A DNA stretch of 64,000 bases from Lathyrus oleraceus (Eukaryota > Streptophyta > Magnoliopsida > Fabales > Fabaceae). The first letter of the stretch is position 1; the number at the start of each line of letters is the position of its first letter. Positions 1,571-45,800 of this stretch are shown here, piece after piece. A program made the position numbers and the translations under genes. The notes beneath the pieces were generated by a model, which saw nothing but the letters and a program-made list of their open reading frames with translations, did not search any database and was not told the DNA's origin. Where the stretch lies: assembly GCF_024323335.1 (NCBI RefSeq), contig NC_066581.1:31244699-31308698 (forward strand), in the 5' to 3' direction.

Positions 1571-2523
1571 GCGGGTGCTGACGGATACTGACATCCACAA
1601 GATGACAGGGCAAGGCTGAACACTTGCAGGGGTTTCACTGGGGAACAAGGTCACGACAGCGAGCAAACAGGAAGGAACACCAAGAATACCGAGTTGTAGG
1701 TATGAACGGGTGACCGACCAAAGCGTGAATTGATTTGTTTTCCAAAACACTCAACATCCTGAAGAGGGCTAGAAAAGCGATCTTGTTAAAGGATGAACAT
1801 TCAATTCCACAAGGAATACGAATCTTACTCTGCTGGAGATAACAATCAAAAGATTGACCAAAGAGTGCATGAGATATATTATCTATAGCCGTCAGAACGT
1901 AGATAATACACTCGCATGGAAGATTATCCATAACCGGTTGTAGGTTGTTAATGAATAATCGACCGACATCATCCTGAAGAAGCGAAGGCAAACTTGTTAA
2001 AGGATGGACATTCGATTCCACAAGGAATACGAATCTTACTCTGCTGGTGATAACAATCGGAAGATTGACCAAAGAGTGCATGAGATATATTATCTATAGC
2101 CGTCAAAACGTAGATAATAACCTCGCATGGAAGATTATCCATAACCGGTTGTAGGTTGTTAAACGAATAATCGACCTGAACTGCTCGTGATATCAATGTT
2201 CCGCTAAGTGGCGCAAATACCACCCGCTTCCCATGAATCACTCTATTCCTAATCATCCTAGATTTCACTCATGGTCTGGGTATTGGACCTTTTACCTCAA
2301 CTGACTCCCCCCCCACACAGAGAAACAAAACAACCAGCCAGGCAGAAAGAATAATGAATATGAATGCAAACATAAGTGTACACAATAAATGCAAACAATA
2401 AATGCACATATATACAATGAATGCAAAAAATAACAGCACAAAGCAACCAAAATCCTAACCTAGAGAGCGCTAGGAGAGACTCGCTCAGGGAAGATGGACC
2501 AGCATAGGTCAACTTCTCTACAT
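1571..2523 (-). other. Noncoding remainder of A1 internal region with stem-loop modules and deletion join
   Basis: 1640-2176 holds two related modules about 210 bp apart (AGGATG(A/G)ACATTC then GGAATACGAATCTTACTC). Each ends in a perfect inverted repeat ATTATCTA/TAGATAAT (1878-1907 and 2089-2118). After 2176 the sequence jumps to the leader segment just downstream of the PBS, matched at 42533 onward in A2. ATACC-GAGTTGTA-GGTAT near 1690 is another small hairpin. No coding potential is credible. Confidence 0.75.
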
Positions 2524-2540
2524 CCCCAGCAGAGTCGCCA
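2524..2540 (-). other. Primer-binding site of A1
   Basis: The sense strand reads TGGCGACTCTGCTGGGG, starting with the TGG that pairs with a tRNA CCA end, two bases (GC) after the LTR ends in GCGACA. Ogre elements are reported to use tRNA-Arg; that assignment is from memory. The same 17-mer is at 42870-42886 and 28805-28821. Confidence 0.85.
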
Positions 2541-2849
2541 GCTGTCGCATTACGCGAAAAACCGGCAGGAAAAGAAAGAAACAACAGAGCCGCCACCGTG
2601 CGTTATTTATCCCAAAAGAGGGAAAGGAAACGCTCAGAGTAAACCTAGGAAAGAACATGGTCTCGCGACCAAAGAGAATGGGTTCGGGAGTCGGTTATGC
2701 GAAGGGAAGGTATTAGCACCCCTACGCATCCGTAGTACTCTACGGGATCCACGCACAAAAGGAAGGAATAATGGTTGCTAAACACTGCTCAAATACTCAC
2801 ACACACTGGCTGAAAGAAACGCAAGAGACTGACTGAAACTGACTCGGCA

Positions 2850-3694
2850 GGATATCGTATCCTGGGCCTACTTAGTCTATCAGGCATAGACATCAGAGTC
2901 GAAGTAGTTCGGACTGGGGAAACGACACATGCTCGCTAGGATATCGCATCCTATGCATACGTATCTTCTCGGACGAGAGAAGAATCAGAGCATTCGTAGC
3001 TCAGCTGACACGCAGACAAACAAACACAGGCAAAGGCAAACGTGGAGCCTGAATGCCAATCACTGGACTTACATCAGCATCCGAACCAAAACGCACACAC
3101 ACTGGAACCCAAATGCCACTCGATGGACTTACATCGGCTTCCAAGCACACAACAACACAACAAGTTAATAGGGAGTCGGGGACTCGAGCCTATAACTGTC
3201 AAGCAACACACTCAAACAAACAGACAACAGATTGCTAAGGAGTCAGGCACTCGAGCCTAGCAACTGTCAAACAACACACACAAAAAGAAAAAGGGCGCCC
3301 GGAGAGATCAGCTCAATCTCCTGCCTACATACTTCATCTGGTGTGAAGATCAGGGCGATGTAGTTCCCCTACGCAGGGACAAGGATCTAGCCTAACCAGA
3401 TAGCAGAGGGAGACACAACTCTAGGGAGACTACGACTCGAGCCTAGATGTTGTCATGCAAAGTCAACCCTAAGTTAAGGTTTCTAGCTAAATGGCACAAG
3501 GGCCAACCTATCCTAGACACGGCTTGCACAGGAAGCAAGGGTCTCGATTGCAACTAGGGCAAGAGAAAGGGGAAGTCTCAATCACAGCAAGGGTGAGAGA
3601 AAAGAGTTAGTGTTAGTTGTTAGTCAAACTCGGCAAGACATCGCGTCTCGTGCCTACGTATCTCATCTGGACATGAGAATCAGAGTTGTCGTAG
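2850..3694 (-). other. Four structured stem-loop modules at U5 end of A1 LTR
   Basis: Modules at 2850-2907, 2939-2998, 3304-3363 and 3636-3694. On the plus strand each has a hairpin (GGATA/TATCC, GGAT/ATCC, GAGAT/ATCTC, AGAC/GTCT), then an outer stem enclosing an inner hairpin and the words ATCAGAG or ATCAGGG. Outer stems are CTACTT/AAGTAG, TACG/CGTA, CTACAT/ATGTAG and CTACG/CGTAG. Inner stems are GTCTAT/ATAGAC, CTTCTC/GAGAAG, CTTCA/TGAAG and TCTCAT/ATGAGA. Sequences differ but pairing holds. I cannot assign a named RNA family. Confidence 0.7.
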
Positions 3695-3737
3695 TTCGGC
3701 TGGCAGGGAAAAAGGACTCGATTGCAACTAGGGCAAG

Positions 3738-3890
3738 AGAAAGGGAAAGTCTCGATCGCGACGAGGGCGAGAGAAAGGAAAAGTCTCGATCGCAACGAGG
3801 GCGAGAGAAAGGAAAAGTCTCGATCGCAACGAGGGCGAGAGAAAGGAAAAGTCTCGATCGCAAGGAGGGCGAGAGAAAGGATCGCAACGA
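3738..3890. repeat. 34-bp tandem repeat inside A LTR
   Basis: AAGTCTCGATCGCAACGAGG followed by GCGAGAGAAAGGAA, four copies plus a partial one. The A2 3' LTR (30478-30630) also has four. The A2 5' LTR (44095-44200) has three, which explains most of its shorter length. Confidence 0.85.
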
Positions 3891-4437
3891 GGGCGAAAGC
3901 AAACAGGGATTAGTCTAAACTAAACCTAACTTGCACAGGAAGCAAGTCAAACAAACACAAGCACAGGTAGCACACACTATATGCACACAAGAGGCTCACA
4001 CAAGGGTTAGGTTTTAGTCGAGGGGTCATATCAACCTCAACAAACAAACCTCTGGAATGGGGTGAAGATTGCTCTTAACCTTGCCATTGAGGGGCTAAGG
4101 TGAAGCAGATGAAAGGAGATGAGGGGTGTGCCTCATTGCTTCTATCCCTGGCCTGGGAGAGCATTTGACAAGAATGTGTGGGTTCAGAAAGTGGGAACCC
4201 TTCTACACATTAGATACTGACTCAACTGTGCAATTGCACAAGATCTTGGGTTTTTATCTGTAATGCATCAACACAATGGTGTGAGCAAGACAGAAGACAC
4301 ACTGATTAGCAGGGGATAGGTTGCTTATCCCTTGGGTTCTGCCAATTGCCTCTTCACTTAGGAGGTCTTTGACTCTATACAAGGACAATTTAAACATACA
4401 CAGGCATTGCCTCTTAAGGAGGACTTCAGACAGTTTG

Positions 4438-4459
4438 CCCGGCCAAATGACAGGCCGGG
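4438..4459 (-). other. Conserved mid-LTR hairpin (A type)
   Basis: CCCGGCC-AAATGACA-GGCCGGG, a perfect 7-bp stem with an 8-base loop. The flanks CTTCA and TGAAG can extend it as an outer stem. Same position and loop in B-type LTRs but with different, still complementary stems. The A2 copies are at 31175-31196 and 44751-44772. Confidence 0.75.
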
Positions 4460-6354
4460 TCTCCAGACTACATGAAGAAAAAGGAATTATACCTCAAGCA
4501 AGTTGCTAAATAGCAAAGCAAAGCAAGTTCAGAGAACTTAAGCAACTAAGGGTACCTGAAAGAGTCAAACTAATCAGTAAACATTTCACAAGTCAAAGCA
4601 AAAGGAAATGAATCCACAGACAAAACAGATGATCAATTGTGCAAAGCACAAGACTCAAACACATGAGTCAAACCTACAAAACAAAGGTTAGCATATGATA
4701 TGTAACCACACTCAATCACATTTGTATGATCTTTGAAGCATTGGTGCTTAACCTGAAACAATGAGCTCAAACATAAGCCAGGAGACCCCTAGGACAAGCC
4801 TAGAGTCAAAGACAAAATAAAAAGTCAAAACAGCAAAGGAAAGTCAACCATTATCAAGTTCAAACATTTAGGAAGCAAACATAATTGGATTCATGTTCAT
4901 ATCATGTACCATCATCAATTCATGAGCAAAAGAAACCAAAGCATGGCAAATGAAGGCACAAAGAAGTCAACAGAATGACTTGCATCAAAAGTCAACTCAA
5001 ACAATTTCAAAAATCACCAAATAAATCAAGTTCAAACCTAACACCTAGCATGGTAAGCATGTCAAATTTCATTGCATTTGGACAAGTGGAAGGCAGTCAA
5101 TGAAAATCATAAAGTTAAAGCAAATTCAAACATGCACAAAGAAGTCAAACAAACATGGGTCAACTTCAAAAAATCATAACTAAATGAAAACAGATGAGAA
5201 ATGAATGAGATTAACACCAATGCAAAGCTCAAGATGTCTAGTATGCACATGCAAAATTTCATGATCATACAATAAGGCATGAGAATTTCCCAAATGAAAT
5301 GGCAAGGTATGTCACACAAAGTCAACATTTGACTAGGCAGGGAAGAAAAATCTCAAACAAATGGAAAATAGTTCAAATAAATCCCAGAAAATTCACACAT
5401 AAACTAGACATATGAGAGAAGGCTTATGCAAAAATTTGGATCATTTGGAGGTCAGGAAGTATGTCATTAAAATTCATGGAAATGCACATTCATGGTGTGA
5501 CACCAAATGTAACACCTTACTTCAAAAAATCAAAGCTCTCAATCCACATATGATAAAATCATGAAATTTACACCAAAATAAACATGAATGAGTATAGATT
5601 ATGCACAAAAAATTTCAACTCAAATGGATGTAACATGGTCATTTCACAATGGTTTTGGCAACATGTATCATTTTTGGTCACTTTACACAAACCCTAAGGC
5701 CATTTAAATACCAATGATCAGAAAATTTATTAAAAATCGTGACAAAAAACTAGACATCAAACAGGACATGATGCAAAAAACCCCATGAAAATTGGAATTG
5801 AAATGAACAAGATATGATTTTTGCAAATATTGATGATCAAATGAAATGTTTATTGAAATTAAATGGATTAAATTGAAATAATTAGGAAGCGGATGGCACA
5901 TTGGTAATTTTGAAGCTCACTTAGCAAAACGACCGTGTTTAAGGGGTGACCAGGAAATGTTGTGATTGGTCCGCATCCAATGAAACAGTACCAAAGCCAG
6001 GAAATACACATGAAAACAAGTTTCTGGAAAAATGGCTAGGGTTTTGAACAGTGACCGTGTGTGTGTTCATCAACTTCATCATGTTCAAATCGTGAAAATC
6101 AAAATGTGCCCAGAAATGAAAATTAGACATGGCATTCGAATCAGTATATCACACACATCAAGAATCCATCATTCATCTTCCTTAAAACACATTAACAATC
6201 ATGAATCGAGCAAAACAAATAAGCATCATCAAACTTGAAAGCAGCATAACTTCTCGAATACTTGACCATTTTCGAAAACAAACACATCATGAAGCTCAGC
6301 GTGGATAGATCTACACTAAGCATGGCATGGATTTGAGAAACAAGTGAATCGAAA

Positions 6355-6360
6355 ACTTAC
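6355..6360 (-). promoter_or_regulatory. Conserved 5' splice donor-like GTAAGT downstream of LTR promoter
   Basis: The sense strand reads AATAAGTAAGTTTTCGA. The TATA box starts 368 nt upstream. The same hexamer lies 365-366 nt from the TATA box in the B and B2 LTRs. A2 copies are at 33093-33098 and 46669-46674. Whether it is used for splicing is inferred. Confidence 0.55.
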
Positions 6361-6727
6361 TTATTCTTGAAAAAATCTGATATGCAGTGATGTTTTGGCT
6401 GTTATGAGCTTAAACAGATGAGCAAAAGTTCTCCAAAGGATGACTGGTGAAGATGCCTTGGCTCAGTGTAGCTTGTCTTTGCTCGAAACTCCATCTGCCA
6501 TGGCTGAGCTTTGGAATAACAGTTGGATGAAAACCGCTTCCAGTTGAGTTTTGATGCTTTAAAATGCTTTCAAATGCTGGCCAAGTGATGATGGAAACAA
6601 GTGTGGTTCGAGCTCTTTGAGAATTTTGGCAGAAAAATGCAAAGGTGTGTAAATGGTGATTTGAGAAAAGAGAGAATTTCTATCTGTTTGCAGCTGCTTC
6701 TAGGGTTGGAGAATGGACAGAAAATAT

Positions 6728-6735
6728 CTTATATA
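6728..6735 (-). promoter_or_regulatory. LTR promoter TATA box (A type)
   Basis: Sense TATATAAG, about 1.02 kb from the LTR start, so U3 would be about 1.05 kb and R plus U5 about 4.1 kb. A2 copies are at 33466-33473 and 47042-47049. Confidence 0.65.
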
Positions 6736-7758
6736 CATCTGTTTAGGCAATGCTAATCATGTACTAACCAAACTTTGCTCATTTTAACCAATTTGCTAAG
6801 TTTGCACTTTTGGCCAAAAGGGTGGTATGTGGTAGCAAGCTGCACGAATTCTGGGCCTTGGCAAGTCTCAAATGACAATTAAAACAATTTCCAAATGGCC
6901 AATTATGCTGAAAACCTTTAATTCAAAAAGTCAACCATTGGTCAAACTTGGATTTTAAATGAAACAAGTCAAAAAATGCCATTTTGATTGGCAAGGTTTT
7001 GGTACATGATGTTTATATTTTTGGAAAGAGGAGGAAAAATGTGGTTTGTAGGAAAAAACCCCATCAAATTTGGCCAAAGGAATCATGAGATATGGCCATT
7101 TGAAGTTCATGAAAATGTGAAAATGATTTGATCATATCTTGCAAACCATTCATGGGATTTGAGAGTTCTTGGACTTTTTGAAAATGGGAGAACAAGATCT
7201 TCAACTTTCATGTTGGGCAAAAATTCATTTGGAGCTTGTATCATGATGTAAGTTGAGGATCAAGAAGTTTCCATTTTTGGCAGTTACAGTTACAGGTCCA
7301 GTTTCTATTTTGGGAAATTTTCTGATTGGCTTCAAATTCTTCAATGATGTTGATTGCCATGACATATGAGGCCTATTGGGACATGAATAAACTCTCTCAA
7401 ACCATTTCCATCCATCAAAACCATAAAATCAACCACAGTTGACCAACTTTGACTTTCTAGGGTTTTTGACTGTCTGTGCATGAACTGATGGCTTCTGAAC
7501 ATCCAATCTTTGGCTTAAACACTTCAAATGGACTTCCAAGTCATGTGAACTTGTTGGACAAACCCTAGGGCCTTTGCTCCTTGAGAAACACCTTTGCTTG
7601 CTTGGTGGACTGATCTCCTGATCAGTTTGACCTAATTCTTGACTTGCTTGCTCTTGAGGCAGCTGGGGGCAATGCAATGCTATGCAATGGACCATGATAT
7701 GCTATGACCTAATATGAAAATGTATGTACAATGATAGGTGCAAATTTGAGGTGCTACA

Positions 7759-7763: not shown

Positions 7764-8548
7764 CACTGAGGCTCTTCATTATCAATGGGAGAAAACTCGA
7801 CCAAGACCAACATCCACCATGCGAGGATAGCTTCGACGTACTAGAGGGGTTAACTCTGTTTTCAGTACGGAAGTCTTACTGTCGACTCACTAAGGATAGG
7901 GTGAGGTTTACATCAACCACAATGATAATTGAAACCTATGGCTAATGCATGAAAAGATTTAACAACGGACAAAGCCAAAACAAGTGAATGGGTGAAGTTA
8001 ATTGATTGTGATTATGAAAATGGAGTCAAAGTATGATTAAGATTAATTCAAAGACGTATTATGAAATGGAGTTTGAAAAAAGTCAAGGACTTGGGGTCCA
8101 GGTTTTTGGTTTGAAAACATGAAGATGTTTGCACAATATCTATGTCAAGTTTGAAATCAAAGTGTGAAAAGGTTTAGGACACAATGAGGATGAATGGATG
8201 AAGATGGAGTGTAAAACTTCTCAGAAGGTTCACCTCTTGAAATCATATAGAAGATGATTCAAGTGTGTCCTTTGGAATAGGCAATGGATAATAATAATGT
8301 AAGCAAACAAATGATACCGGATGCCACTCAATGGTCTTACTCCAATCTCACAAACAAAAAGCGGATACCGGATACCAATAGATGGATTTACACCAATCTC
8401 CTAAAACAAAACTGGATATCAGATGCCACTCAATGGACTTACACTAATCTCCTCAACAAAGAAAATGAAAGAATGGATACCGGATGCCAATCTGTCTGGA
8501 CTTATACCAATATCCAACATATGATCATAGGAAAGCAAATGCCAACTT

Positions 8549-8553: not shown

Positions 8554-8897
8554 TGTAGCGGTGTATTCGTCGCTATATGATCTATTGGTTAAATCATAAG
8601 CTAAGAGATACATTGAAAATTTCGAGTCGCCACCGCACTTTTATTTATCCAAAGGATTGGCTAAAAAGCGAACAAAAGCCTAAGAAGTTTTACACGTAGA
8701 AAACTAATAAAAAGATCAGAGAGTCTGGGTAAGGGGTAAATTACGTAATGGGAAGGTGTTAGGCACCCACTACGTCCTAGGTACTCCTAGGGAGCCCTTT
8801 TCACACTTGTTGTAAAAGATTGTTATTTGTTATGACATAAATATTGTGCAAACATGATTGGGATGGTGAGAAAAGAATATACAAGTTTTTTATTATT

Positions 8898-8963
8898 GGG
8901 TTCGAACGGATGAACCCGTTGCCTACGTACCTTCCATCAAAGGTAAGGATCAGAACGCCGTAG
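8898..8963 (-). other. U5 stem-loop module in B2
   Basis: GGGTTC/GAACCC hairpin, then outer stem CTACG/CGTAG (8923-8927 with 8959-8963) around inner stem TACCTT/AAGGTA (8928-8933 with 8940-8945), and ATCAGA between. Same plan as the four modules in the A LTR with different stem sequences. The B 5' LTR has its copy at 29165-29230. Confidence 0.7.
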
Positions 8964-9579
8964 TTCGGCTAAAAGATTTCCAAAAAGTGGGTTAGGTTCA
9001 ATTTTAAACACAAACCCTAGGTCTTACGTTATCCACGGGAGAAAACTCAACCTTATACAAACAACAAAGTCCACCATGTGAGAACAGCTTCAACTGGCCA
9101 GGGAGGGGTTAACCCTATAATAGGCGAGGAAGACTTACAATTCAATCACTAAAGACAGAAGGTGAGATTAACATCAACCACTAAGATAAATCAAACCTAT
9201 AGCTCATGTATGAAAAGATTAATGGACAAAGCCAAAACAAGTGAATGAGTGAAGTTACTGATTATGATTATGAAAATGGAGTCAAAGTATGATTAAGATC
9301 AATTCAAATAAGTATTATAGAAATGAGTTTGAAAAAAGGTCAAGGACTTGAGTCCAGGTTTTTAGTTAGGAAAACATGAAAATGTTTGCACAACACTTAT
9401 GTCAAGTTTAAAAGATGAAGTGTGAAAAAGGTTCTAAGACATAATGGATGATGAATGGATGAAGATGGAAAGTAAAACTTCTTAGAAGGTTCACTTCTTG
9501 AAATCATATAGCAGATGATTCAAGTGTGTCCTTTGGAATAGCAATTAATAATAACAAACAAGCAAAGCAAGCAAAAGCG

Positions 9580-10160
9580 GATATCGGATGCCAATCACTG
9601 GTCTTATACCAATCTCCTAAAACAGAATGGGATATCGGATGCCACTCAATGGACTTACACCAATCTCCACAGGCAAAGAAATAAAAAGCGGATACCGGAT
9701 ACCAATAGATGGATTTACACCAGTCTCCTAAAACAAAACGGGATATCAGATGCCACTCAATGGTCTTACACCGATCTCCTCAAAAGAAAAGAACAGAGAT
9801 GAAATATGGAAGTCAACTGCCAATCTATCTGGACTTAGGTTAACTCCACAGTATGCTCACAGGAAATCCAATGCCACATCACAGGGGCTTACAATGGATC
9901 CTCACATACAAGAACAAAAGAAACAATATGATCACAGGAATGCAAATGCCAACTTACAGGGACTTATAACTGCAACCTCACATACAAACACACAGATCAA
10001 ACTATGATCACAGGATAACAGATGCCAACTTACAGGGACTTATAACTGCAACCTCACATACAACATCAAACAGATCAAATCATGATCACAGGATAACAGA
10101 TGCCAACCTACAGGGACTTATAACTGTATCCTCACATACAAACAGATAAACGGAAGATAT
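9580..10160. repeat. Degenerate tandem modules in B2 LTR
   Basis: About ten units of 50-75 bp built on GGATGCCA(A/C)TC..TGG(A/T)CTTACACCAATCTCC, shifting to GATGCCAACTTACAGGGACTT..CCTCACATAC. Two related units sit in the A LTR at about 3053 and 3112. Confidence 0.7.
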
Positions 10161-28804: not shown

Positions 28805-28821
28805 CCCCAGCAGAGTCGCCA
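28805..28821 (-). other. Primer-binding site of B
   Basis: Sense TGGCGACTCTGCTGGGG, six bases (GAAAAG) downstream of the LTR end CGCTACA. Identical to the PBS of A1 and A2, though the spacer is longer. Confidence 0.8.
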
Positions 28822-28827
28822 CTTTTC

Positions 28828-29279
28828 TGTAGCGGTGTATTCGTCGCTATATGATTTATCGATTAAACCATAAGCAAAGCATACAATGAAATTTCGAGTC
28901 GCCACCGCACTTTTATTTATCCAAAGGATTGGCTAAAAAGCGAACAAAAGCCTAAGAAGTTTTACACGTAGAAAACTAATAAAAAGATCAGAGAGTCTGG
29001 ATAAGGGGTAAATTACGCAATGGGAAGGTGTTAGGCACCCACTACGTCCTAGGTACTCCTAGGGAGCCCTTTTCACACTTGTTGTAAAAATTGTTATTTG
29101 TTATGACATAAGTATTGTGCAAACATGATCGGGATGATGAGAAAAGAATGTACAAGTTTTTATTGGGTTTGAACGGATGAACCCGCTGCCTACGTACCTT
29201 CCATCAAAGGTAAGGATCAAAACGCCGTAGTTCGGCTAAAAACTTTCCAAAAGTTGGTGGATTCAATTTTAAACAATAG
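28828..29279 (-). repeat. 5' LTR of B, U5 terminal piece
   Basis: Starts TGTAGCGGTGTATTCGTCGC and runs 452 bp to the A2 insertion, where the last five bases are the AATAG TSD. Continues at 48077. Contains a U5 stem-loop module (29165-29230: GGGTT/AACCC, CTACG/CGTAG, TACCTT/AAGGTA). Confidence 0.88.
29275..29279. repeat. Left TSD AATAG of A2
   Basis: AATAG before TGTCGCATC; partner at 48072-48076. Confidence 0.92.
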
Positions 29280-32200
29280 TGTCGCATCACGCGAAAAACC
29301 GGCGGGAAAAGAAAGAACAACAGAGCCGCCACCGTGCGTTATTTATCCCAAAAGAGGGAAAGGAAACGCTCAGAGTAAACCTAGGAAAGAACATGGTCTC
29401 GCGACCAAAGAGAATGGGTTCGGGAGTCGGTTATGCGAAGGGAAGGTATTAGCACCCCTACGCATCCGTAGTACTCTACGGGATCCACGCACAAAAGGAA
29501 GGAATAATGGTTGCTAAACACTGCTCAAATACTCACACACACTGGCTGAAAGAAACGCAAGAGACTGACTGAAACTGACTCGGCAGGATATCGTATCCTG
29601 GGCCTACTTAGTCTATCAGGCATAGACATCAGAGTCGAAGTAGTTCGGACTGGGGAAACGACACATGCTCGCTAGGATATCGCATCCTATGCATACGTAT
29701 CTTCTCGGACGAGAGAAGAATCAGAGCATTCGTAGCTCAGCTGACACGCAGACAAACAAACACAGGCAAAGGCAAACGTGGAGCCTGAATGCCAATCACT
29801 GGACTTACATCAGCATCCGAACCAAAACGCACACACACTGGAACCCAAATGCCACTCGATGGACTTACATCGGCTTCCAAGCACACAACAACACAACAAG
29901 TTAATAGGGAGTCGGGGACTCGAGCCTATAACTGTCAAGCAACACACTCAAACAAACAGACAACAGATTGCTAAGGAGTCAGGCACTCGAGCCTAGCAAC
30001 TGTCAAACAACACACACAAAAAAGAAAAAGGGCGCCCGGAGAGATCAGCTCAATCTCCTGCCTACATACTTCATCTGGTGTGAAGATCAGGGCGATGTAG
30101 TTCCCCTACGCAGGGACAAGGATCTAGCCTAACCAGATAGCAGAGGGAGACACAACTCTAGGGAGACTACGACTCGAGCCTAGATGTTGTCATGCAAAGT
30201 CAACCCTAAGTTAAGGTTTCTAGCTAAATGGCACAAGGGCCAACCTATCCTAGACACGGCTTGCACAGGAAGCAAGGGTCTCGATTGCAACTAGGGCAAG
30301 AGAAAGGGGAAGTCTCAATCACAGCAAGGGTGAGAGAAAAGAGTTAGTGTTAGTTGTTAGTCAAACTCGGCAAGACATCGCGTCTCGTGCCTACGTATCT
30401 CATCTGGACATGAGAATCAGAGTTGCCGTAGTTCGGCTGGCAGGGAAAAAGGACTCGATTGCAACTAGGGCAAGAGAAAGGGAAAGTCTCGATCGCGACG
30501 AGGGCGAGAGAAAGGAAAAGTCTCGATCGCAACGAGGGCGAGAGAAAGGAAAAGTCTCGATCGCAACGAGGGCGAGAGAAAGGAAAAGTCTCGATCGCAA
30601 TGAGGGCGAGAGAAAGGATCGCAACGAGGGCGAAAGCAAACAGGGATTAGTCTAAACTAAACCTAACTTGCACAGGAAGCAAGTCAAACAAACACAAGCA
30701 CAGGTAGCACACACTATATGCACACAAGAGGCTCACACAAGGGTTAGGTTTTAGTCGAGGGGTCATATCAACCTCAACAAACAAACCTCTGGAATGGGGT
30801 GAAGATTGCTCTTAACCTTGCCATTGAGGGGCTAAGGTGAAGCAGATGAAAGGAGATGAGGGGTGTGCCTCATTGCTTCTATCCCTGGCCTGGGAGAGCA
30901 TTTGACAAGAATGTGTGGGTTCAGAAAGTGGGAACCCTTCTACACATTAGATACTGACTCAACTGTGCAATTGCACAAGATCTTGGGTTTTTATCTGTAA
31001 TGCATCAACACAATGGTGTGAGCAAGACAGAAGACACACTGATTAGCAGGGGATAGGTTGCTTATCCCTTGGGTTCTGCCAATTGCCTCTTCACTTAGGA
31101 GGTCTTTGACTCTATACAAGGACAATTTAAACATACACAGGCATTGCCTCTTAAGGAGGACTTCAGACAGTTTGCCCGGCCAAATGACAGGCCGGGTCTC
31201 CAGACTACATGAAGAAAAAGGAATTATACCTCAAGCAAGTTGCTAAATAGCAAAGCAAAGCAAGTTCAGAGAACTTAAGCAACTAAGGGTACCTGAAAGA
31301 GTCAAACTAATCAGTAAACATTTCACAAGTCAAAGCAAAAGGAAATGAATCCACAGACAAAACAGATGATCAATTGTGCAAAGCACAAGACTCAAACACA
31401 TGAGTCAAACCTACAAAACAAAGGTTAGCATATGATATGTAACCACACTCAATCACATTTGTATGATCTTTGAAGCATTGGTGCTTAACCTGAAACAATG
31501 AGCTCAAACATAAGCCAGGAGACCCCTAGGACAAGCCTAGGGTCAAAGACAAAATAAAAAAGTCAAAACAGCAAAGGAAAGTCAACCATAATCAAGTTCA
31601 AACATTTAGGAAGCAAACATAATTGGATTCATGTTCATATCATGTACCATCATCAATTCATGAGCAAAAGAAACCAAAGCATGGCAAATGAAGGCACAAA
31701 GAAGTCAACAGAATGACTTGCATCAAAAGTCAACTCAAACAATTTCAAAAATCACCAAATAAATCAAGTTCAAACCTAACACCTAGCATGGTAAGCATGT
31801 CAAATTTCATTGCATTTGGACAAGTGGAAGGCAGTCAATGAAAATCATAAAGTCAAAGCAAATTCAAACATGCACAAAGAAGTCAAACAAACATGGGTCA
31901 AATTCAAAAAATCATAACTAAATGAAAACAGATGAGAAATGAATGAGATTAACACCAATGCAAAGCTCAAGATGTCTAGTATGCACATGCAAAATTTCAT
32001 GATCATACAATAAGGCATGAGAATTTCCCAAATGAAATGGCAAGGTATGTCACACAAAGTCAACATTTGACTAGGCAGGGAAGAAAAATCTCAAACAAAT
32101 GGAAAATAGTTCAAATAAATCCCAGAAAATTCACACATAAACTAGACATATGAGAGAAGGCTTATGCAAAAATTTGGATCATTTGGAGGTCAGGAAGTAT

Positions 32201-34496
32201 GTCATTAAAATTCATGGAAATGCACATTCATGGTGTGACACCAAATGTAACACCTTACTTCAAAAAATCAAAGCTCTCAATCCACATATGATAAAATCAT
32301 GAAATTTACACCAAAATAAACATGAATGAGTATAGATTATGCACAAAAAATTTCAACTCAAATGGATGTAACATGGTCATTTCACAATGGTTTTGGCAAC
32401 ATGTATCATTTTTGGTCACTTTACACAAACCCTAAGGCCATTTAAATACCAATGATCAGAAAATTTATTAAAAATCGTGACAAAAAACTAGACATCAAAC
32501 AGGACATTATGCAAAAAACCCCATGAAAATTGGAATTGAAATGAACAAGATATGATTTTTGCAAATATTGATGATCAAATGAAATGTTTATTGAAATTAA
32601 ATGGATTAAATTGAAATAATTAGGAAGCGGATGGCACATTGGTAATTTTGAAGCTCACTTAGCAAAACGACCGTGTTTAAGGGGTGACCAGGAAATGTTG
32701 TGATTGGTCCGCATCCAATGAAACAGTACCAAAGCCAGGAAATACACATGAAAACAAGTTTCTGGAAAAATGGCTAGGGTTTTGAACAGTGACCGTGTGT
32801 GTGTTCATCAACTTCATCATGTTCAAATCGTGAAAATCAAAATGTGCCCAGAAATGGAAATTAGACATGGCATTCGAATCAGTATATCACACACATCAAG
32901 AATCCATCATTCATCTTCCTTAAAACACATTAACAATCATGAATCGAGCAAAACAAATAAGCATCATCAAACTTGAAAGCAGCATAACTTCTCGAATACT
33001 TGACCATTTTCGAAAACAAACACATCATGAAGCTCAGCATGGATAGATCTACACTAAGCATGGCATGGATTTGAGAAACAAGTGAATCGAAAACTTACTT
33101 ATTCTTGAAGAAATCTGATATGCAGTGATGTTTTGGCTGTTATGAGCTTAAATAGATGAGCAAAAGTTCTCCAAAGGATGACTGGTGAAGATGCCTTGGC
33201 TCAGTGTAGCTTGTCTTTGCTCGAAACTCCATCTGCCATGGCTGAGCTTTGGAATAACAGTTGGATGAAAACCGCTTCCAGTTGAGTTTTGATGCTTTAA
33301 AATGCTTTCAAATGCTGGCCAAGTGATGATGGAAACAAGTGTGGTTCGAGCTCTTTGAGAATTTTGGCAGAAAAATGCAAAGGTGTGTAAATGGTGATTT
33401 GAGAAAAGAGAGAATTTCTATCTGTTTGCAGCTTCTTCTAGGGTTGGAGAATGGACAGAAAATATCTTATATACATCTGTTTAGGCAATGCTAATCATGT
33501 ACTAACCAAACTTTGCTCATTTTAACCAATTTGCTAAGTTTGCACTTTTGGCCAAAAGGGTGGTATGTGGTAGCAAGCTGCACGAATTCTGGGCCTTGGC
33601 AAGTCTCAAATGACAATTAAAACAATTTCCAAATGGCCAATTATGCTGAAAACCTTTAATTCAAAAAGTCAACCATTGGTCAAACTTGGATTTTAAATGA
33701 AACAAGTCAAAAAATGCCATTTTGATTGGCAAGGTTTTGGTACATGATGTTTATATTTTTGGAAAGAGGAGGAAAAATGTGGTTTGTAGGAAAAAACCCC
33801 ATCAAATTTGGCCAAAGGAATCATGAGATATGGCCATTTGAAGTTCATGAAAATGTGAAAATGATTTGATCATATCTTGCAAACCATTCATGGGATTTGA
33901 GAGTTCTTGGACTTTTTGAAAATGGGAGAACAAGATCTTCAACTTTCATGTTGGGCAAAAATTCATTTGGAGCTTGTATCATGATGTAAGTTGAGGATCA
34001 AGAAGTTTCCATTTTTGGCAGTTACAGTTACAGGTCCAGTTTCTATTTTGGGAAATTTTCTGATTGGCTTCAAATTCTTCAATGATGTTGATTGCCATGA
34101 CATATGAGGCCTATTGGGACATGAATAAACTCTCTCAAACCATTTCCATCCATCAAAACCATAAAATCAACCACAGTTGACCAACTTTGACTTTCTAGGG
34201 TTTTTGACTGTCTGTGCATGAACTGATGGCTTCTGAACATCCAATCTTTGGCTTAAACACTTCAAATGGACTTCCAAGTCATGTGAACTTGTTGGACAAA
34301 CCCTAGGGCCTTTGCTCCTTGAGAAACACCTTTGCTTGCTTGGTGGACTGATCTCCTGATCAGTTTGACCTAATTCTTGACTTGCTTGCTCTTGAGGCAG
34401 CTGGGGGCAATGCAATGCTATGCAATGGACCATGATATGCTATGACCTAATATGAAAATGTATGTACAATGATAGGTGCAAATTTGAGGTGCTACA
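29280..34496 (-). repeat. 3' LTR of A2, 5217 bp
   Basis: Same structure as 2543-7758. Hairpin 31175-31196, donor 33093-33098, TATA 33466-33473. Its private bases (GTCAAAG near 31853, CATTATG near 32505) distinguish it from the other two A LTRs. Confidence 0.93.
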
Positions 34497-34509: not shown

Positions 34510-34814
34510 AATCAGCTGGGAACCCGAACGGATGATAGCAACGGCTGTCAGACTTTCAGGGTAAACAGGGATTGAATACCAAAGAACCGTGGAATTTGCA
34601 CGATGCCAGGATCCACCAATGGAAACGTCCACTGGGACTTATTACTGGGTATATATATTTTTGTTTTTGTTTTCAAAGGGTACAGCCACATCCAGACATC
34701 GCAATGACGATGAATGGGAAAAGAAATCACAACTAGATGCCAACGGACAACTAGGAAAAACTCAGCGTTTACCGGACCAACGGAGAGGTAAATCCGCAAG
34801 GGGACAGGTACAAC

Positions 34815-35350
34815 TAGACGTCATAGGACGAATAGGAAGACTCACGTTTATCGACACCAACGGAGAGGAGGAAAAACTCAACCAGGCGTCATAGGACGAA
34901 AGGTAGACTCACGTTTATCGACACCAACGGAGAGGAGGAAAAACTCAACCAGACGTCATAGGACGAAAGGTAGACTCACGTTTATCGACACCAACGGAGA
35001 GGAGGAAAAACTCAACCAGACATCATAGGACGAAAGGGAGACTCACGTTTATCGACACCAACGGAGAGGAGGAAAACTCAGCCAGACGTCATAGGACGAA
35101 AGGGAGACTCACGTTTATCGACACCAGCGGAGAGGAGGAAAATTCAGCCAGACGTCATAGGACGAAAGGGAGACTCACGTTTATCGACACCAACGGAGAG
35201 GAGGAAAAATTCAGCCAGACGTCATAGGACGAAAGGGAGACTCACGTTTATCGACACCAACGGAGAGGAGGATAACTCAGGCAGACGTCATAGGACGAAA
35301 GGGAGACTCACGTTTATCGACACCAACGGAGAGGAGGAAAAATTCACTAG
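34815..35350 (-). repeat. Tandem array R1 in A2 (about 66 bp x 8)
   Basis: Same units as 607-1140, with small differences in poly-A length and GTCATAGG variants. The array length is almost the same in A1 and A2. Confidence 0.9.
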
Positions 35351-35379
35351 GGAAGGGAGGGCGACATTATGAACATCGA

Positions 35380-35785
35380 AAGAGGATGTTTACCGACATC
35401 AAAAGAAAACCAGACACTTACGCATGACTGGAAATCACCGAAGGATGGTGTTTACCGACACCAAAGAAGACCAGACACTTACGCATGACTGGAAATCACC
35501 GAAGGATGGTGTTTACCGACACCAAAAGAAAACCAGACACTTACGCATGACTGGAAATCACCGAAGGATGGTGTTTACCGACACCAAAGAAGACCAGACA
35601 CTTACGCATGACTGGAAATCACCGAAGGATGGTGTTTACCGACACCAAAGAAGACCAGACACTTACGCATGACTGGAAATCACCGAAGGATGGTGTTTAC
35701 CGACACCAAAAAAAAACCAGACACTTACGCATGACTGGAAATCACCGAAGGATGGTGTTTACCGACACCAAAGAAACAACACACG
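35380..35785 (-). repeat. Tandem array R2 in A2 (60-62 bp x 6)
   Basis: GCATGACTGG at about 35423, 35484, 35546, 35607, 35668 and 35729, with the GGTGTTTACCGACACC hairpin in each unit. Confidence 0.9.
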
Positions 35786-38700
35786 CGGGTGCTGACGGGA
35801 TACTGACATCCACAAGATGACAGGGCAAGGCTGAACACTTGCAGGGGGTTTCACTGGGGAACAAGGTCACGACAGCGAGCAAACAGGAAGGAACACCAAG
35901 AATACCGAGTTGTAGGTATGAAACGGGTGACCGACCAAAGCGTGAATTGATTTGTTTTCCAAAACACTCAACATCCTGAAGAGGGCTAGAAAAGCGATCT
36001 TGTTAAAGGATGAACATTCAATTCCACAAGGAATACGAATCTTACTCTGCTGGAGATAACAATCAAAAGATTGACCAAAGAGTGCATGAGATATATTATC
36101 TATAGCCGTCAGAACGTAGATAATACACTCGCATGGAAGATTATCCATAACCGGGTTGTAGGTTGTTAAATGAATAATCGACCGACATCATCCTGAAGAG
36201 AGCGAAGGCAAACTTGTTAAAGGATGGACATTCGATTCCACAAGGAATACGAATCTTACTCTGCTGGTGATAACAATCGGAAGATTGACCAAAGAGTGCA
36301 TGAGATATATTATCTATAGCCGTCAAAACGTAGATAATAACCTCGCATGGAAGATTATCCATAACCGGGTTGTAGGTTGTTAAACGAATAATCGACCGAA
36401 AAAGAAAGGCATCAGGGTACCAGGACTAGGTATGCAAAAGATGACCAATCAAAAGAGGATAAAGTTGCTAACTCGGAGCAAATACCCAAAGGCAGGGGAA
36501 GACCCAATGGGGACAATACTGCTTGATCAAGGCAAGTATCCAGAGGGGAAAGAATATCAATATCACAGACCGGATACTGATAACTGCAAAGAGGGAATTA
36601 CATCTACCGGTTTGTAGGCAGAAAACCACGGAAAAGTAACCAGTCATCATCGGGATGAGCACAAAGGGTTAACTCCAACAAGGGGGGGAACGTGGGATTT
36701 TACAACTACCAGCTAGTGGGTAGAAAACCACAAAGATAGGACTTACAACTGCCAGTTCGTAGGTAGAGGCCAATGGAAAAGTAACCAGTCATCATCGGGA
36801 TGAGCACAAAGGGTTAACTCTACCAAGGGGATGAAAGTGGGATTTTACAACTACCAGCTAGTGGGTAGAAAACCACAAAGATAGGACTTACAACTACCGG
36901 TTCGTAGGTAGAGGCCAGTAAATGGTCTGCTGAGAGACAGAGTGAGAAAAAAGGATTTACAACTACCGGGTAGCGGGTAGAAGACCGTAAAGAAAGGACT
37001 TACAGCTACCGGTTCGTAGGTAGAGGCCCACAAATTCCGCTGAGGATGAAATGAATGAGTGCCGGTTAGTGAGCGACTATTCATTTATGCCCCAGGGAAG
37101 CACAGGAGACAGCCAATTTAGGATCGATCCAAAAAGGCAGACTGAAACAAGACTGATCCTAATGAGGAAAGAACTCAATAGGGAAAACCCATCCCGTTAG
37201 GGAGGGAACGGAAGCAACCGTCATCCACGAGGATGTATCTCAGTGGGGAAATGGCAGGAAAGGATTGACACTTTCTGCTTAAGGGGTAGACTCTATATGG
37301 AGGGATCAGACACACCCATATCTGCTTAAGGAAAATCTACTAGAGAGATCTGTATCAACAAATAGCAGGAGGTAACAATCAACAGATACCCGGCAACAGC
37401 TGCAACATGAGTATCCAAATGCTATGATTATGCATGTATGCATTCTATCTAAAATGTATGATGAATGCTGACAAACAGGCATGCTCAACACGCAGGTCCG
37501 GGAATCAACCGTCCGGAGAGAAAACCAAAGCCACCAGAGAGCAAAGAAGATCCACTAGGGACTGGGATATCAGGGAACATTTATCCTGCAGGGGAGGAAG
37601 ACCACCGGAGGCTTCCGGAGGGATCGTCGGTCACAACCGGAGAAAAGAGTTCAACATACAGGCGGATGCGCCACAACAACTTGTGATGAAAATCCGAGGT
37701 ACCGAGAAGCAACCAGATCTCTGATGAGGATACATAGGCATTGATAAGGCTCGTCATGCCAACAACTCCGCTGGGGGATCCATCTGAGGGCATGCCGGAT
37801 TACGGGGATGTCGACCCTCCGGATACTGAATCTTCAAAGAAAAACACCCACGCTGGGGGAGAGAGGAAGACTACTCTGCTGGAGAGGCGAAAGTTGAAGT
37901 CTTCAGTAAACACTCTGCTAGGGGAGCTGCCCCACAATAATGTCCGAAATAGCAAACTTACTGGGGATGCCCCACGGTAAGGCTCAAACAGCACTCTACT
38001 GGGGATGCCCCATAATAGAGCTAACAGGGATTTGGAGGAAGAATCTGTACTGCCGGGAACGTGAAGATGAACAACTTCAAACAACACTGCATCGGGCAAC
38101 TTCACTGAGGAGACCATACGAGGTTGTGCAGGACAAAGATACAGTCATGCTCGAGATACGAACAATTGTCTTACCTGTTAGTAATCATACCACCCTCGGG
38201 AGAGCACTGTGGGTCTCCTAAGTATCCTTCCATCATTGTGAATGTTCACTTTGTTTAAGAACAATTTTTTTTGAAAAATTTGTTTATTTTGAAAACAATG
38301 ATACTTTATCAATTAAAACATGCAAAACGTTTGTTGAGTTGAAACAAATAAGAGTGCAAACAATTTGGATAAAAGCTCAAATTAGATGTAATGGAATGGT
38401 AGTCTGCAAAGGGCGAGACTCCATAGATCTGTACAAGTTTGAAATCGGTGATATATATTGGAGAGGGCTACATTGAACATAATGACCTTTCCTCTACCAT
38501 TCTGAATTTTCGATGTATTCGGAGCTTCAGTCGACGACGAATCGAGAATCTCTGACGGATGACAGATATAGAGCACAGTCTTGTCAAGATGCAGTTACTT
38601 GCCAAATCCCTAATTTTTGCCTAGATTGCCCCAGTGTGAGGTGCTCAATCTAGCGGGATGCAAATTCTTTTTTTTCAATGTCTCTAACTTTTGCCTGGAT

Positions 38701-38797
38701 CGCCCTTTCGGGTTTTCAATCCACCGAGACGCTCCTTTTTGCCTAAGTTACCCTTTGGGGTGTTCGACTTAGCGAGCTTTTGCTTTTTTTCTTTGTT
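35786..38797 (-). other. A2 3' internal noncoding region with repeated stem-loops
   Basis: 35880-36400 holds two modules ending in ATTATCTA/TAGATAAT hairpins. 36600-37040 has repeated CTACC...GGTAG stem-loops in a GATAGGACTTACAACT context. 37500-38130 has plus-strand ACTCCGCTGGGGGA (37765-37778) and ACTCTACTGGGGA (37993-38005), complementary to the PBS. 38220-38797 matches B 25720-26297. No credible gene. The part after 36397 is deleted in A1. Confidence 0.6.
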
Positions 38798-39070
38798 TTA
38801 GGCGAAGTATTTCTTGACTGCATCGGAATTCACAGGACGAGTGAACTTCTTCATCCATTGCTGTAAGTGTCAAAGCACTGCCTGAAGAGGCTCTTTTGAA
38901 AACATATGGACTTTCATAGCTTGGAGTTCACTTGCCCCTGGAATCGGGCACGAAAGACAAGACTTTCTTGAGCACAAGGTCCCTCGGAACACACGAGGCT
39001 TGATCTTCTTGTCAAATGCTTTCTGACCATAAAACATGGCAGTTGATCTTTTGTTTTTGCTTGAATTCAG
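38798..39070 (-). pseudogene. Integrase C-terminal remnant of Ogre pol in A2
   Basis: Recognisable as a worn copy of 26298-26636. The sense strand ends in a KKYFA-type terminus with stop at 38798, and KKIKPRVFR is readable near 38990. It has lost bases (the GDLVLKK segment is out of frame) and about 20 residues around the LNLIEEKR to GQLYQ region. The 5' boundary GTTGACTGATGCTGAAT is the same as in B. No catalytic residues are present. Confidence 0.75.
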
Positions 39071-39225
39071 CATCAGTCAACTTGGGACTTTGAGGGTGCT
39101 ATCTTTTTTTGTTTCTTTCTTTCTTTTTCTTTCTTTTGATTTGGATTTCTTTTGATTTGGATTTCTTTTGATTTTGCACCCTCTCTTTCTTTTTTCTTTC
39201 TCTTTTTTTTTTGATAATGCCCCAG
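39071..39225 (-). other. Purine-rich filler at pol deletion in A2
   Basis: Sense strand rich in AAAGAAAG, AAATCC repeats (three AAATCAAAAGAAATCC-like units) and AGAGAGGG. Same place as the 26637-26812 tract. Confidence 0.65.
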
Positions 39226-39400
39226 TTGGCTGTTCTGCTGATTCTCGAGATGCAGCTGAGTGATCTTCTTTTCTTGCTCAAGAAGTCGGGAAATCTCGTC
39301 AGGAATCCCTTCAACATCATCTTCGTCCGCTTCAAATACAGGGAATTCAAAATTGGGAGATGACGTCCGATCATTATGTTCAATGGGTTTGAGAAACAAC
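39226..39400 (-). pseudogene. Start of RT exon (pre-RT linker) in A2
   Basis: Sense frame PIEHNDRTSSPNFEFPVFEA, then acidic DEDDVEGIPDEISRLLEQEK before running into filler. Counterpart of 26825-26976; follows the acceptor at 39401. Confidence 0.8.
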
Positions 39401-39666
39401 CTGCATAAAGATTTTGATATGAAAAGCACTTTGAAAATCAAACAAGATAATCGTTATGCAGATGAAAAGATTGCTTTTATTCTTGTTTTTTTTTTAAGGT
39501 TTTTTGTGATCACCAATTTCATGCAAAAGTGAAAAGGGAAAACAAATGGAAAAACAAATGTTTAACATGAATTTATTTGAATGAAAATATCATTGCACAA
39601 AATGTTGCCAACAATGTCATCACTTCTCCTTTGGCATGGGAGAAGGGTTTTTAAACAAAGTGATTG
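39401..39666 (-). other. Retained Ogre intron in A2 (3' splice site at 39401)
   Basis: Acceptor CTTTATGCAG before GTTGTTTC. Length and AT-richness match the B intron; the donor boundary near 39666 is unresolved. Confidence 0.65.
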
Positions 39667-40123: not shown

Positions 40124-40442
40124 ATGATATGCTCATTTCTCAGGCATTCAAAGAGCCTGACCCATCCTCAAAAGATGGCAACCCGCAGCAAAAAGAGAAC
40201 ACAGATACAGGGAAAAATGAAAGCAACAGAGAAATGCTGATAACCTTATCTATACATAAGGGTAAAAAGTCATACAACCAAAATCAACAGAATATTCGGA
40301 TAATCAGAGTACAAAGAAAAAGAATCCCATCCAACAAGCCTGGAGGTGATTCTCAACAAATAGATCCAAAGATGGAGTACAAGCAAATGAATCCCATCCA
40401 ACAAGCCTGGAGGTGATTCAACAAAATATCACAGAGATACAA
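40124..40442 (-). other. Short spacer where gag and protease are missing
   Basis: About 300 bp between the end of ORF1 and the pro remnant. Contains a direct repeat (ATCCCATCCAACAAGCCTGG with flanks, at about 40323 and 40391). A full Ogre would have gag and protease here. Confidence 0.6.
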
Positions 40443-42888: not shown

Positions 42889-45800
42889 TGTCGCATTACG
42901 CGAAAAACCGGCAGGAAAAGAAAGAAACAACAGAGCCGCCACCGTGCGTTATTTATCCCAAAAGAGGGAAAGGAAACGCTCAGAGTAAACCTAGGAAAGA
43001 ACATGGTCTCGCGACCAAAGAGAATGGGTTCGGGAGTCGGTTATGCGAAGGGAAGGTATTAGCACCCCTACGCATCCGTAGTACTCTACGGGATCCACGC
43101 ACAAAAGGAAGGAATAATGGTTGCTAAACACTGCTCAAATACTCACACACACTGGCTGAAAGAAACGCAAGAGACTGACTGAAACTGACTCGGCAGGATA
43201 TCGTATCCTGGGCCTACTTAGTCTATCAGGCATAGACATCAGAGTCGAAGTAGTTCGGACTGGGGAAACGACACATGCTCGCTAGGATATCGCATCCTAT
43301 GCATACGTATCTTCTCGGACGAGAGAAGAATCAGAGCATTCGTAGCTCAGCTGACACGCAGACAAACAAACACAGGCAAAGGCAAACGTGGAGCCTGAAT
43401 GCCAATCACTGGACTTACATCAGCATCCGAACCAAAACGCACACACACTGGAACCCAAATGCCACTCGATGGACTTACATCGGCTTCCAAGCACACAACA
43501 ACACAACAAGTTAATAGGGAGTCGGGGACTCGAGCCTATAACTGTCAAGCAACACACTCAAACAAACAGACAACAGATTGCTAAGGAGTCAGGCACTCGA
43601 GCCTAGCAACTGTCAAACAACACACACAAAAAAGAAAAAGGGCGCCCGGAGAGATCAGCTCAATCTCCTGCCTACATACTTCATCTGGTGTGAAGATCAG
43701 GGCGATGTAGTTCCCCTACGCAGGGACAAGGATCTAGCCTAACCAGATAGCAGAGGGAGACACAACTCTAGGGAGACTACGACTCGAGCCTAGATGTTGT
43801 CATGCAAAGTCAACCCTAAGTTAAGGTTTCTAGCTAAATGGCACAAGGGCCAACCTATCCTAGACACGGCTTGCACAGGAAGCAAGGGTCTCGATTGCAA
43901 CTAGGGCAAGAGAAAGGGGAAGTCTCAATCACAGCAAGGGTGAGAGAAAAGAGTTAGTGTTAGTTGTTAGTCAAACTCGGCAAGACATCGCGTCTCGTGC
44001 CTACGTATCTCATCTGGACATGAGAATCAGAGTTGCCGTAGTTCGGCTGGCAGGGAAAAAGGACTCGATTGCAACTAGGGCAAGAGAAAGGGAAAGTCTC
44101 GATCGCGACGAGGGCGAGAGAAAGGAAAAGTCTCGATCGCAACGAGGGCGAGAGAAAGGAAAAGTCTCGATCGCAACGAGGGCGAGAGAAAGGATCGCAA
44201 CGAGGGCGAAAGCAAACAGGGATTAGTCTAAACTAAACCTAACTTGCACAGGAAGCAAGTCAAACAAACACAAGCACAGGTAGCACACACTATATGCACA
44301 CAAGAGGCTCACACAAGGGTTAGGTTTTAGTCGAGGGGTCATATCAACCTCAACAAACAAACCTCTGGAATGGGGTGAAGATTGCTCTTAACCTTGCCAT
44401 TGAGGGGCTAAGGTGAAGCAGATGAAAGGAGATGAGGGGTGTGCCTCATTGCTTCTATCCCTGGCCTGGGAGAGCATTTGACAAGAATGTGTGGGTTCAG
44501 AAAGTGGGAACCCTTCTACACATTAGATACTGACTCAACTGTGCAATTGCACAAGATCTTGGGTTTTTATCTGTAATGCATCAACACAATGGTGTGAGCA
44601 AGACAGAAGACACACTGATTAGCAGGGGATAGGTTGCTTATCCCTTGGGTTCTGCCAATTGCCTCTTCACTTAGGAGGTCTTTGACTCTATACAAGGACA
44701 ATTTAAACATACACAGGCATTGCCTCTTAAGGAGGACTTCAGACAGTTTGCCCGGCCAAATGACAGGCCGGGTCTCCAGACTACATGAAGAAAAAGGAAT
44801 TATACCTCAAGCAAGTTGCTAAATAGCAAAGCAAAGCAAGTTCAGAGAACTTAAGCAACTAAGGGTACCTGAAAGAGTCAAACTAATCAGTAAACATTTC
44901 ACAAGTCAAAGCAAAAGGAAATGAATCCACAGACAAAACAGATGATCAATTGTGCAAAGCACAAGACTCAAACACATGAGTCAAACCTACAAAACAAAGG
45001 TTAGCATATGATATGTAACCACACTCAATCACATTTGTATGATCTTTGAAGCATTGGTGCTTAACCTGAAACAATGAGCTCAAACATAAGCCAGGAGACC
45101 CCTAGGACAAGCCTAGGGTCAAAGACAAAATAAAAAAGTCAAAACAGCAAAGGAAAGTCAACCATTATCAAGTTCAAACATTTAGGAAGCAAACATAATT
45201 GGATTCATGTTCATATCATGTACCATCATCAATTCATGAGCAAAAGAAACCAAAGCATGGCAAATGAAGGCACAAAGAAGTCAACAGAATGACTTGCATC
45301 AAAAGTCAACTCAAACAATTTCAAAAATCACCAAATAAATCAAGTTCAAACCTAACACCTAGCATGGTAAGCATGTCAAATTTCATTGCATTTGGACAAG
45401 TGGAAGGCAGTCAATGAAAATCATAAAGTTAAAGCAAATTCAAACATGCACAAAGAAGTCAAACAAACATGGGTCAACTTCAAAAAATCATAACTAAATG
45501 AAAACAGATGAGAAATGAATGAGATTAACACCAATGCAAAGCTCAAGATGTCTAGTATGCACATGCAAAATTTCATGATCATACAATAAGGCATGAGAAT
45601 TTCCCAAATGAAATGGCAAGGTATGTCACACAAAGTCAACATTTGACTAGGCAGGGAAGAAAAATCTCAAACAAATGGAAAATAGTTCAAATAAATCCCA
45701 GAAAATTCACACATAAACTAGACATATGAGAGAAGGCTTATGCAAAAATTTGGATCATTTGGAGGTCAGGAAGTATGTCATTAAAATTCATGGAAATGCA

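Follow-up and report, generated by a model that had tools for sequence, protein, structure and literature searches.

The genomic RNA of Ty1, a long terminal repeat (LTR) retrotransposon, carries in its 5' leader a pseudoknot linked to packaging and reverse transcription, and the ribozymes like that of hepatitis delta virus (HDV) share a skeleton in which the helix strands follow one another in the order P1a-P2a-P3-P1b-P4-P2b. To our knowledge, little is known about how plant LTR elements, among them the Ogre-like elements that account for a large share of certain large legume genomes, mark their genomic RNA. The stretch analyzed here, 64,000 nucleotides (nt) of Lathyrus oleraceus DNA (assembly GCF_024323335.1, contig NC_066581.1, positions 31,244,699 to 31,308,698; hereafter, the window), holds nested Ogre-like LTR elements, for which the minus strand is the sense strand. 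Towards the U5 end of their LTRs lies a module of about 80 nt that is probably a four-helix pseudoknot, provided that two crossing helices, P1 and P2, form at once, and that is likely to be a selected cis-acting pseudoknot of the genomic RNA. Unlike the Ty1 pseudoknot, which is a single long-range fold near the gag start, this module is repeated within U5, and it shares the strand order of the HDV-like ribozymes but neither their catalytic features nor their P1.1 helix.

Other described systems resemble the module in part. MusD is an animal element. Its transport element (MTE), of the constitutive transport element type, is described as a pseudoknotted cis-acting RNA of an LTR element (PMC12786077); the present module, likened to it by description and not by sequence, measures 80 nt and occurs one to four times before the primer binding site (PBS). 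Retrozymes, as described in PMC4918200, likewise hold folded RNA, hammerhead ribozymes, inside plant LTRs, whereas the elements here, whose LTRs are about 5 kb long, are Ogre-like, and a hammerhead was rejected, with no match in the Rfam scans. Cassandra elements are reported to contain RNA-related sequence, 5S rRNA, inside the LTR (PMC10853983), but no 5S match was found in the Rfam scans of the U5 regions of the A and B LTR types defined below, and this identity was rejected as well. The main text of a survey of plant LTR elements that covers PBS type and domains (PMC6317226) uses neither of the terms "untranslated" and "RNA structure". Literature searches with literal sequences gave no description of the module among the matches listed, and topic searches gave none that names it in the title or the start of the abstract among the matches listed. 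A Melilotus LTR marker primer containing CGTAGTTCGG, as given in PMC8146837, matches over 10 bases and was set aside as too short to count. Rfam 15 has no match above gathering score in the window, in line with an earlier note on this DNA, made from the sequence alone, which knew of no named family. In permissive scans, which covered the U5 of A and of B, two matches far below threshold appeared in 2500-4000, Ms_IGR-2 (E 2.1) and Six3os1_2 (E 4.8, 3535-3783, plus strand), and none in 28820-29280, the U5 of B. The module is a candidate new RNA family and a concrete RNA signal that can be tested.

A model built from the six module types of the window (R1) finds 14 copies there, all on the minus strand, and no other up to E 5: modules A4, A3, A2 and A1 in each of three A-type LTRs, one module in the B LTR and one in the C LTR. 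They are as follows.

3619..3700, minus strand: module A4, sense 5' end at 3700; P1 3694-3690/3658-3654, P2 3687-3683/3631-3627 (AACUC/GAGUU), P3 3678-3673/3666-3661, P4 3650-3646/3638-3634, with GAA, UGAU, UA and GC around the helices
3294..3369, minus strand: module A3, P2 CGCCC/GGGCG, P1 CUACAU/AUGUAG
2926..3005, minus strand: module A2, P2 UGCUC/GAGCA, outer P1 pair C.U (by eye, replaceable by GC/GC pairing around a bulged U)
2837..2913, minus strand: module A1, the closest to the LTR end, P2 GACUC/GAGUC, P1 CUACUU/AAGUAG
29573..30437, minus strand: modules A4 to A1 of the A element 3' LTR, at 30360-30437, 30031-30106, 29662-29741 and 29573-29649
43183..44047, minus strand: modules A4 to A1 of the A element 5' LTR, at 43970-44047, 43641-43716, 43272-43351 and 43183-43259
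29157..29236, minus strand: single module of the B LTR, P2 GUUU/AAAC
8890..8969, minus strand: the only module in the C solo LTR, P2 GUUC/GAAC, a compensatory difference from B

In the sense RNA, the order is GAA/GAG-P1a-J-P2a-UGAU-P3-UA-P1b-GC-P4-NC-P2b, where P1 is CUACN/NGUAG, P3 is the hairpin between UGAU and UA, and P4 is the 3' hairpin. The helix P2, first hinted at by minimum-energy folds of the A modules, joins the five bases before UGAU to the five after P4 and thereby crosses P1; its strands pair, with differing letters, in all six distinct modules of the window, and even the closely related B and C modules differ compensatorily. The earlier note had described four modules at the U5 end of an Ogre-like LTR and a further one labeled B/B2, and both observations stand: the four A modules, with the quoted stems, occupy 2837-3700, and the further one corresponds to the C module, with the B module as its relative at 29157-29236. 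The fold that it drew, an outer stem and two hairpins, captured P1, P3 and P4 but missed P2, and with it the probable pseudoknot; its "upstream hairpin" exists as P4, which, the plus strand having been read, is in fact downstream in the sense RNA. As for the inner stem of the B and C modules, the proposed TACCTT/AAGGTA is possible, but we prefer CCUU/AAGG, which fits flush between UGAU and UA as P3 does in the A modules.

The strand order is that of the HDV skeleton, J1/2 is 1 to 3 nt long, a C directly precedes P2b in 59 of 61 modules, and ribozymes have been described in the LTRs of plant retrozymes (PMC4918200), all of which would suit a self-cleaving ribozyme. We nevertheless consider self-cleavage highly unlikely and rejected membership among the HDV-like ribozymes: those have a 7-bp P1 that starts with G at the cleavage site, whereas P1 here is CUACN/NGUAG or NGUAU, 5-6 bp with a C-G end (CUAC being demanded by the search pattern); by eye, the 61-row alignment has neither a consistent L3/J1/4 pairing that could serve as P1.1 nor an A-rich J4/2, which is NC; GAA or GAG stands 5' of P1, where HDV-like ribozymes need nothing; and no ribozyme in Rfam matches the A and B U5 regions up to E 5.

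The predicted fold is kept through compensatory changes, as comparison of the sequences indicates: covariation exceeds a tree-based null in P2, P3 and P4 and, more weakly, in P1. In the six window modules, a module's own strands pair better than swapped ones in P2 (4.67 against 3.33 of 5), P3 (5.5 against 3.87 of 6), P4 (5.0 against 3.23 of 5) and P1 (5.17 against 4.7 of 6). For a wider comparison, modules were taken from the window and from loci within the first 1.9 Mb of one contig, 30 of them 3 kb long and 20 of them 9.9 kb. Every one of these loci was picked for holding a pattern match, so that they represent element families and not genome positions; the 81 distinct core hits, with one chance hit dropped and four merged on trimming, gave 61 A-type and 15 B-type modules. 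Among 30 of the 61 A-type modules, which were aligned, 96.3% of 630 cells of the four-helix structure are paired (P1 97.3%, P2 94.7%, P3 96.1%, P4 97.3%), whereas shuffling leaves 80.6% paired and sliding 30-51%; changes on both sides affect 115 cells against 33.5 shuffled, and the covariation score is 0.530 against 0.208. Without a structure as input, RNAalifold predicts P2, P3 and P4 and omits P1, a helix that it cannot combine with P2.

The tree-based null, our own script that follows the idea of R-scape without being R-scape, preserves the tree as well as the substitutions in each column. With all 61 A-type modules and 40 null alignments, the top seven of 1749 column pairs are all structure pairs and represent all four helices (in rank order P3, P4, P4, P2, P2, P1 and P3, with E 0, 0, 0.05, 0.12, 0.17, 0.19 and 1.5); ranks 8 and 9 are non-structure pairs. 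With 76 modules, where P2b of the 15 B-type ones was fixed by its place after P4, none of 2000 nulls reached the covariation score of P2, P3 or P4, and 13 reached that of P1; the share of paired cells was likewise reached by none for P2, P3 and P4. The earlier proposal of an RNA structure selected through compensatory change is thus borne out, and the covarying pairs in all three stems that it asked for as support are present for P3 and P4 and, less strongly, for P1. P2, for which the support comes from the sampled modules and not from genome-wide counts, occurs in 15 strand combinations among the 61 modules, the commonest being UGCUC/GAGCA (19), GACUC/GAGUC (12) and CGCCC/GGGCG (7). A second model built without P2 (R2) matches 65 times, in 22 sources, at E values up to 10; two of these matches (E 3.7 and 7.8) are at chance level. 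In the modules found by R2 alone, P2 pairs by eye at four of five positions (L039:6109, L050:2245, L035:9342) or at four positions including one G.U (L039:5246), a weaker match, L049:2597 (E 0.0015), having been left out of this tally.

In the whole genome (3.795 Gb, 1550 contigs), the core pattern GAACTAC..TGAT..GTAGGC has 211,384 matches, against 85 for its reversed control; a DNA search of the same genome with module A4, by a tool that passes over very common words, gave no match. At the fifth pair of P1, 26,522 copies have A-U, 17,970 U-A, 4,999 G.U (73 in the reversed control), 5,198 A.C and 292 U.C; the other 156,403 of the 211,384 were not split and, going by the sample (44 of 61), are mostly G-C. 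Independent decay from G-C would yield about 170 A-U. The modules are paralogues present in many copies, and ancestry and module duplication might imitate covariation with no selection at work, as the modest result for P1 on its own (13 of 2000; 185 of 2000 on paired cells) would allow; with three helices exceeding, in 2000 of 2000 draws, a null that preserves tree and substitutions, and with U-A at 17,970 against U.C at 292, we hold this to be extremely improbable.

As a side observation, G000:C1:206839604-206862356 contains four listed modules of the U.C class with a period of 7,569 bases, which would suit a tandem array of some whole unit. Searches of non-plant collections gave no confirmed module: plasmids and phages had no match, GTDB contigs none, and the U5-hairpin pattern described below none in viral contigs. 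Three stretches of viral contigs that match the module pattern were read as unrelated coding DNA, and none of the DUF7745 loci in viral contigs was confirmed.

The position of the modules bears on their function. The relevant features are these.

2523..2542, minus strand: PBS, directly after the LTR end, matched as GCTGGCGACTCTGCTGGGGA; further PBSs start at 42888 and 28823
2699..2720, minus strand: core (GGUGC..ACCUUCCC) of a conserved U5 hairpin lying after module A1 and before the PBS
29435-29456 and 43045-43066, minus strand: further U5 hairpin cores, with B and C versions near 29039 and 8767
6728..6735, minus strand: TATA-box-like TATATAAG, at position 1024 of the LTR and some 3.0 kb before module A4

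In the sample, modules number one to four per LTR, share its strand and precede the PBS at a nearly constant distance, which bears out the placement next to the PBS proposed earlier. In all 28 module groups found by pattern in the window and in loci L034-L053 (loci picked for having modules, with near-identical LTRs accounting for several groups), a U5 hairpin core follows downstream on the same strand; in 27 of them, 170-231 nt separate its start from that of the last module. In L039, the distance from the pattern module to the core is 1,685 nt, and the nearer R2 match at 6109 brings this 28th group within the same range. The PBS starts 176-218 nt after the hairpin core in the 11 groups where one was found. 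In L035, an extra hairpin hit (9550) is preceded at 208 nt by an R2 module; another in L053 was judged by eye to be spurious. With the TATA-like box at LTR position 1024 of the A LTRs, the modules would sit in the transcribed leader (R-U5), and the A leader before the PBS would be about 4.1 kb long. Strong covariation, near-fixed PBS spacing and huge copy number make the module a U5-end marker for annotating Ogre-like elements.

Between module and PBS, what looks like a second structured domain (window 2699-2745, about 29036-29075 and about 8760-8800, minus strand) recurs in L004-L053. By eye, it consists of a GAGUAC hairpin whose flanks vary as pairs (UAG/CUA, GUC/GAC, GUU/AAC, AUG/CAU) and of the GGUGC..ACCUUCCC hairpin with AUGCG/CGCAU or ACG/CGU. 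Elsewhere in the A U5, a GGCUCGAG hairpin occurs three times (3150-3215, 3215-3275 and 3405-3465, minus strand) and also in other A-type LTRs, with flanks changed yet, by eye, apparently paired.

Near-fixed PBS spacing, redundancy and retention without a recognized gag argue for a cis-acting signal on the genomic RNA, most likely used in replication or packaging, a view we favor on balance. All four modules are retained in the A element although no gag was recognized in it: its internal region has DUF7745 at 41177-42130 and 40443-41261, and among the 14 minus-strand stop-to-stop pieces of at least 70 amino acids in 34510-41000, one Pfam match is better than E 0.03, the end of that same DUF7745 domain (25.9 bits against a cut-off of 26), with no other convincing Pfam match. 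Because that is the sole match, the A element looks non-autonomous, judging by these pieces. The R-U5 leader of Ogre-like Ty3 elements would carry each module as a compact RNA domain with a pseudoknot, some 80 nt long. Its P1 and P2 would form together, and it would act in cis, as sense-strand RNA, on the genomic RNA of its own element. Least certain are the later steps: Gag or the extra ORF1 protein might bind the modules, additively where there are several, and this binding might select the genomic RNA for packaging and ready it for reverse transcription. Within the reading as a selected cis-acting pseudoknot, packaging is the role we tentatively put first and export the next. Of packaging, dimerization and priming, the roles suggested in the earlier note, dimerization by way of kissing loops is disfavored because no conserved palindromic loop is seen by eye in the module alignments.

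Export from the nucleus of unspliced, intron-containing Ogre RNA, after the manner of the pseudoknotted MusD element, strikes us as possible if rather unlikely. The Ogre of Medicago truncatula has functional introns, the MTE is described as having pseudoknot and kissing-loop motifs (PMC12786077), and repeated structured modules suit additive recruitment, although the near-fixed spacing before the PBS fits a replication signal slightly better. An A leader as long as estimated above would be long for simple scanning upstream of ORF1/gag, and the structured leaders of pararetroviruses are reported to control translation as well as replication (PMC5902531); a role in translation or leader stability (internal entry, shunting, a block to 5'-3' decay) is unlikely all the same, given the copy number of one to four and the place before rather than after the PBS. 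About as doubtful is a bolder proposal from the sequences, that of a new class of self-folding RNA domain, a nested pseudoknot of HDV order with catalytic or ligand- or protein-capturing activity of its own, the one to four modules per LTR forming a recognition code. If true, module number and type would be the code by which autonomous Ogre elements know their own RNA, and gag-less elements would parasitize them through it.

Several observations weigh against a selected cis-acting pseudoknot. The search patterns demand CTAC, TGAT and GTA, which makes their constancy and that of four P1 pairs uninformative, and all data come from one genome. In the 30-module comparison, pairs changed on both sides (13 of 21 against 11.2 shuffled, reached in 63 of 500 shuffles) and further pair types (32 against 30.2, reached in 120 of 500) are close to the shuffled values. 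In the 61-module test, three column pairs are at about E 0.05 or lower, a further eight structure pairs take ranks between 10 and 676, and six are too invariant to score; the P1 share of paired cells was reached by the 185 nulls given above. A non-standard P2 pair occurs in 12 of the 61 modules (in 10 of these at the outer end) and C.U at the outer P1 pair in 14, and in several families the B-type P3 is both short and irregular. Overall folding energies do not stand out (mean z -0.87 sense and -0.71 antisense in 26 of the 76 modules). Nested energies slightly favor P2 over P1, being lower in 52 of 61 modules, and P1 and P2 could accordingly be alternatives, that is, a switch. Decayed gag-pol pieces shorter than 70 amino acids in the A element fall outside the Pfam scan.

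The equal G.U and A.C counts at P1 pair 5 give no hint of strand, and suggest that single changes there are mainly decay in dead copies; in the 61 modules, G.U exceeds A.C by 53 to 16, mostly in P4, where the register of the A3 type is ambiguous. Such flat counts, and covariation that is symmetric between the strands, are what palindromic protein-binding sites in the DNA of the LTR would also give. We find this DNA-level explanation very doubtful, as P2 crosses P1, which simple DNA palindromes leave unexplained, and in the A LTR the TATA-like box is some 3 kb or more upstream of the modules.

The host elements are arranged as follows.

2543..7758, minus strand: A-type LTR with the modules A4-A1 detailed above, a 99.7% match to 29280-34496
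48071-42889, minus strand: 5' LTR of the A element, A-type
34496-29280, minus strand: 3' LTR of the A element, A-type
from 53293, minus strand: 5' LTR of the B element, split by the complete A element and continuing at 29275-28828
16225-8554, minus strand: C solo LTR, target site duplication CCTGC

The complete A element (48071-29280) has the 5-bp target site duplication CTATT; its two LTRs are 99.1% identical, and A-type LTR pairs that include 29280-34496 are at least 99.1% identical. PBSs follow the LTR ends at 2542, 42888 and 28823, and a polypurine-tract-like sequence, of the kind expected before a 3' LTR, lies at 302/34508/20668. After the PBS, behind module-bearing LTRs, Gag, DUF7745 or protease matches appear in five of eight loci (L036, L040, L042, L045 and L051; 9 of 19 open reading frames), with PF03732 in L036, L040, L042 and L051 and DUF7745 in L040, consistent with a Ty3-type gag and an extra ORF1. 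DUF7745 we take to be the mark of Ogre ORF1, and the label Ogre-like, a sequence-based assignment, rests on the LTR, PBS and ORF1 features.

Both LTRs of the B element carry an A insertion at the same site (window 7758 and 48071). From the A copy at 7758, some 6.1 kb of internal sequence is missing; splicing as the origin of this gap was rejected, the junction not being GT-AG. Beside module A4 are 34-bp tandem repeats (3537-3604 and 3717-3881, minus strand), the variants of which seem, by eye, to keep a small hairpin paired (UCG/CGA, UUG/CAA, UCA/UGA). The sense sequence GUAAGUCC or close variants, resembling a 5' splice site, recur many times in repeats of all three LTR types (by eye, at 3043-3160, 8313-8460 and 9558-10144). 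On the opposite strand, open reading frames for Copia-type gag, integrase and reverse transcriptase occupy window positions 53281-62318 (plus strand).
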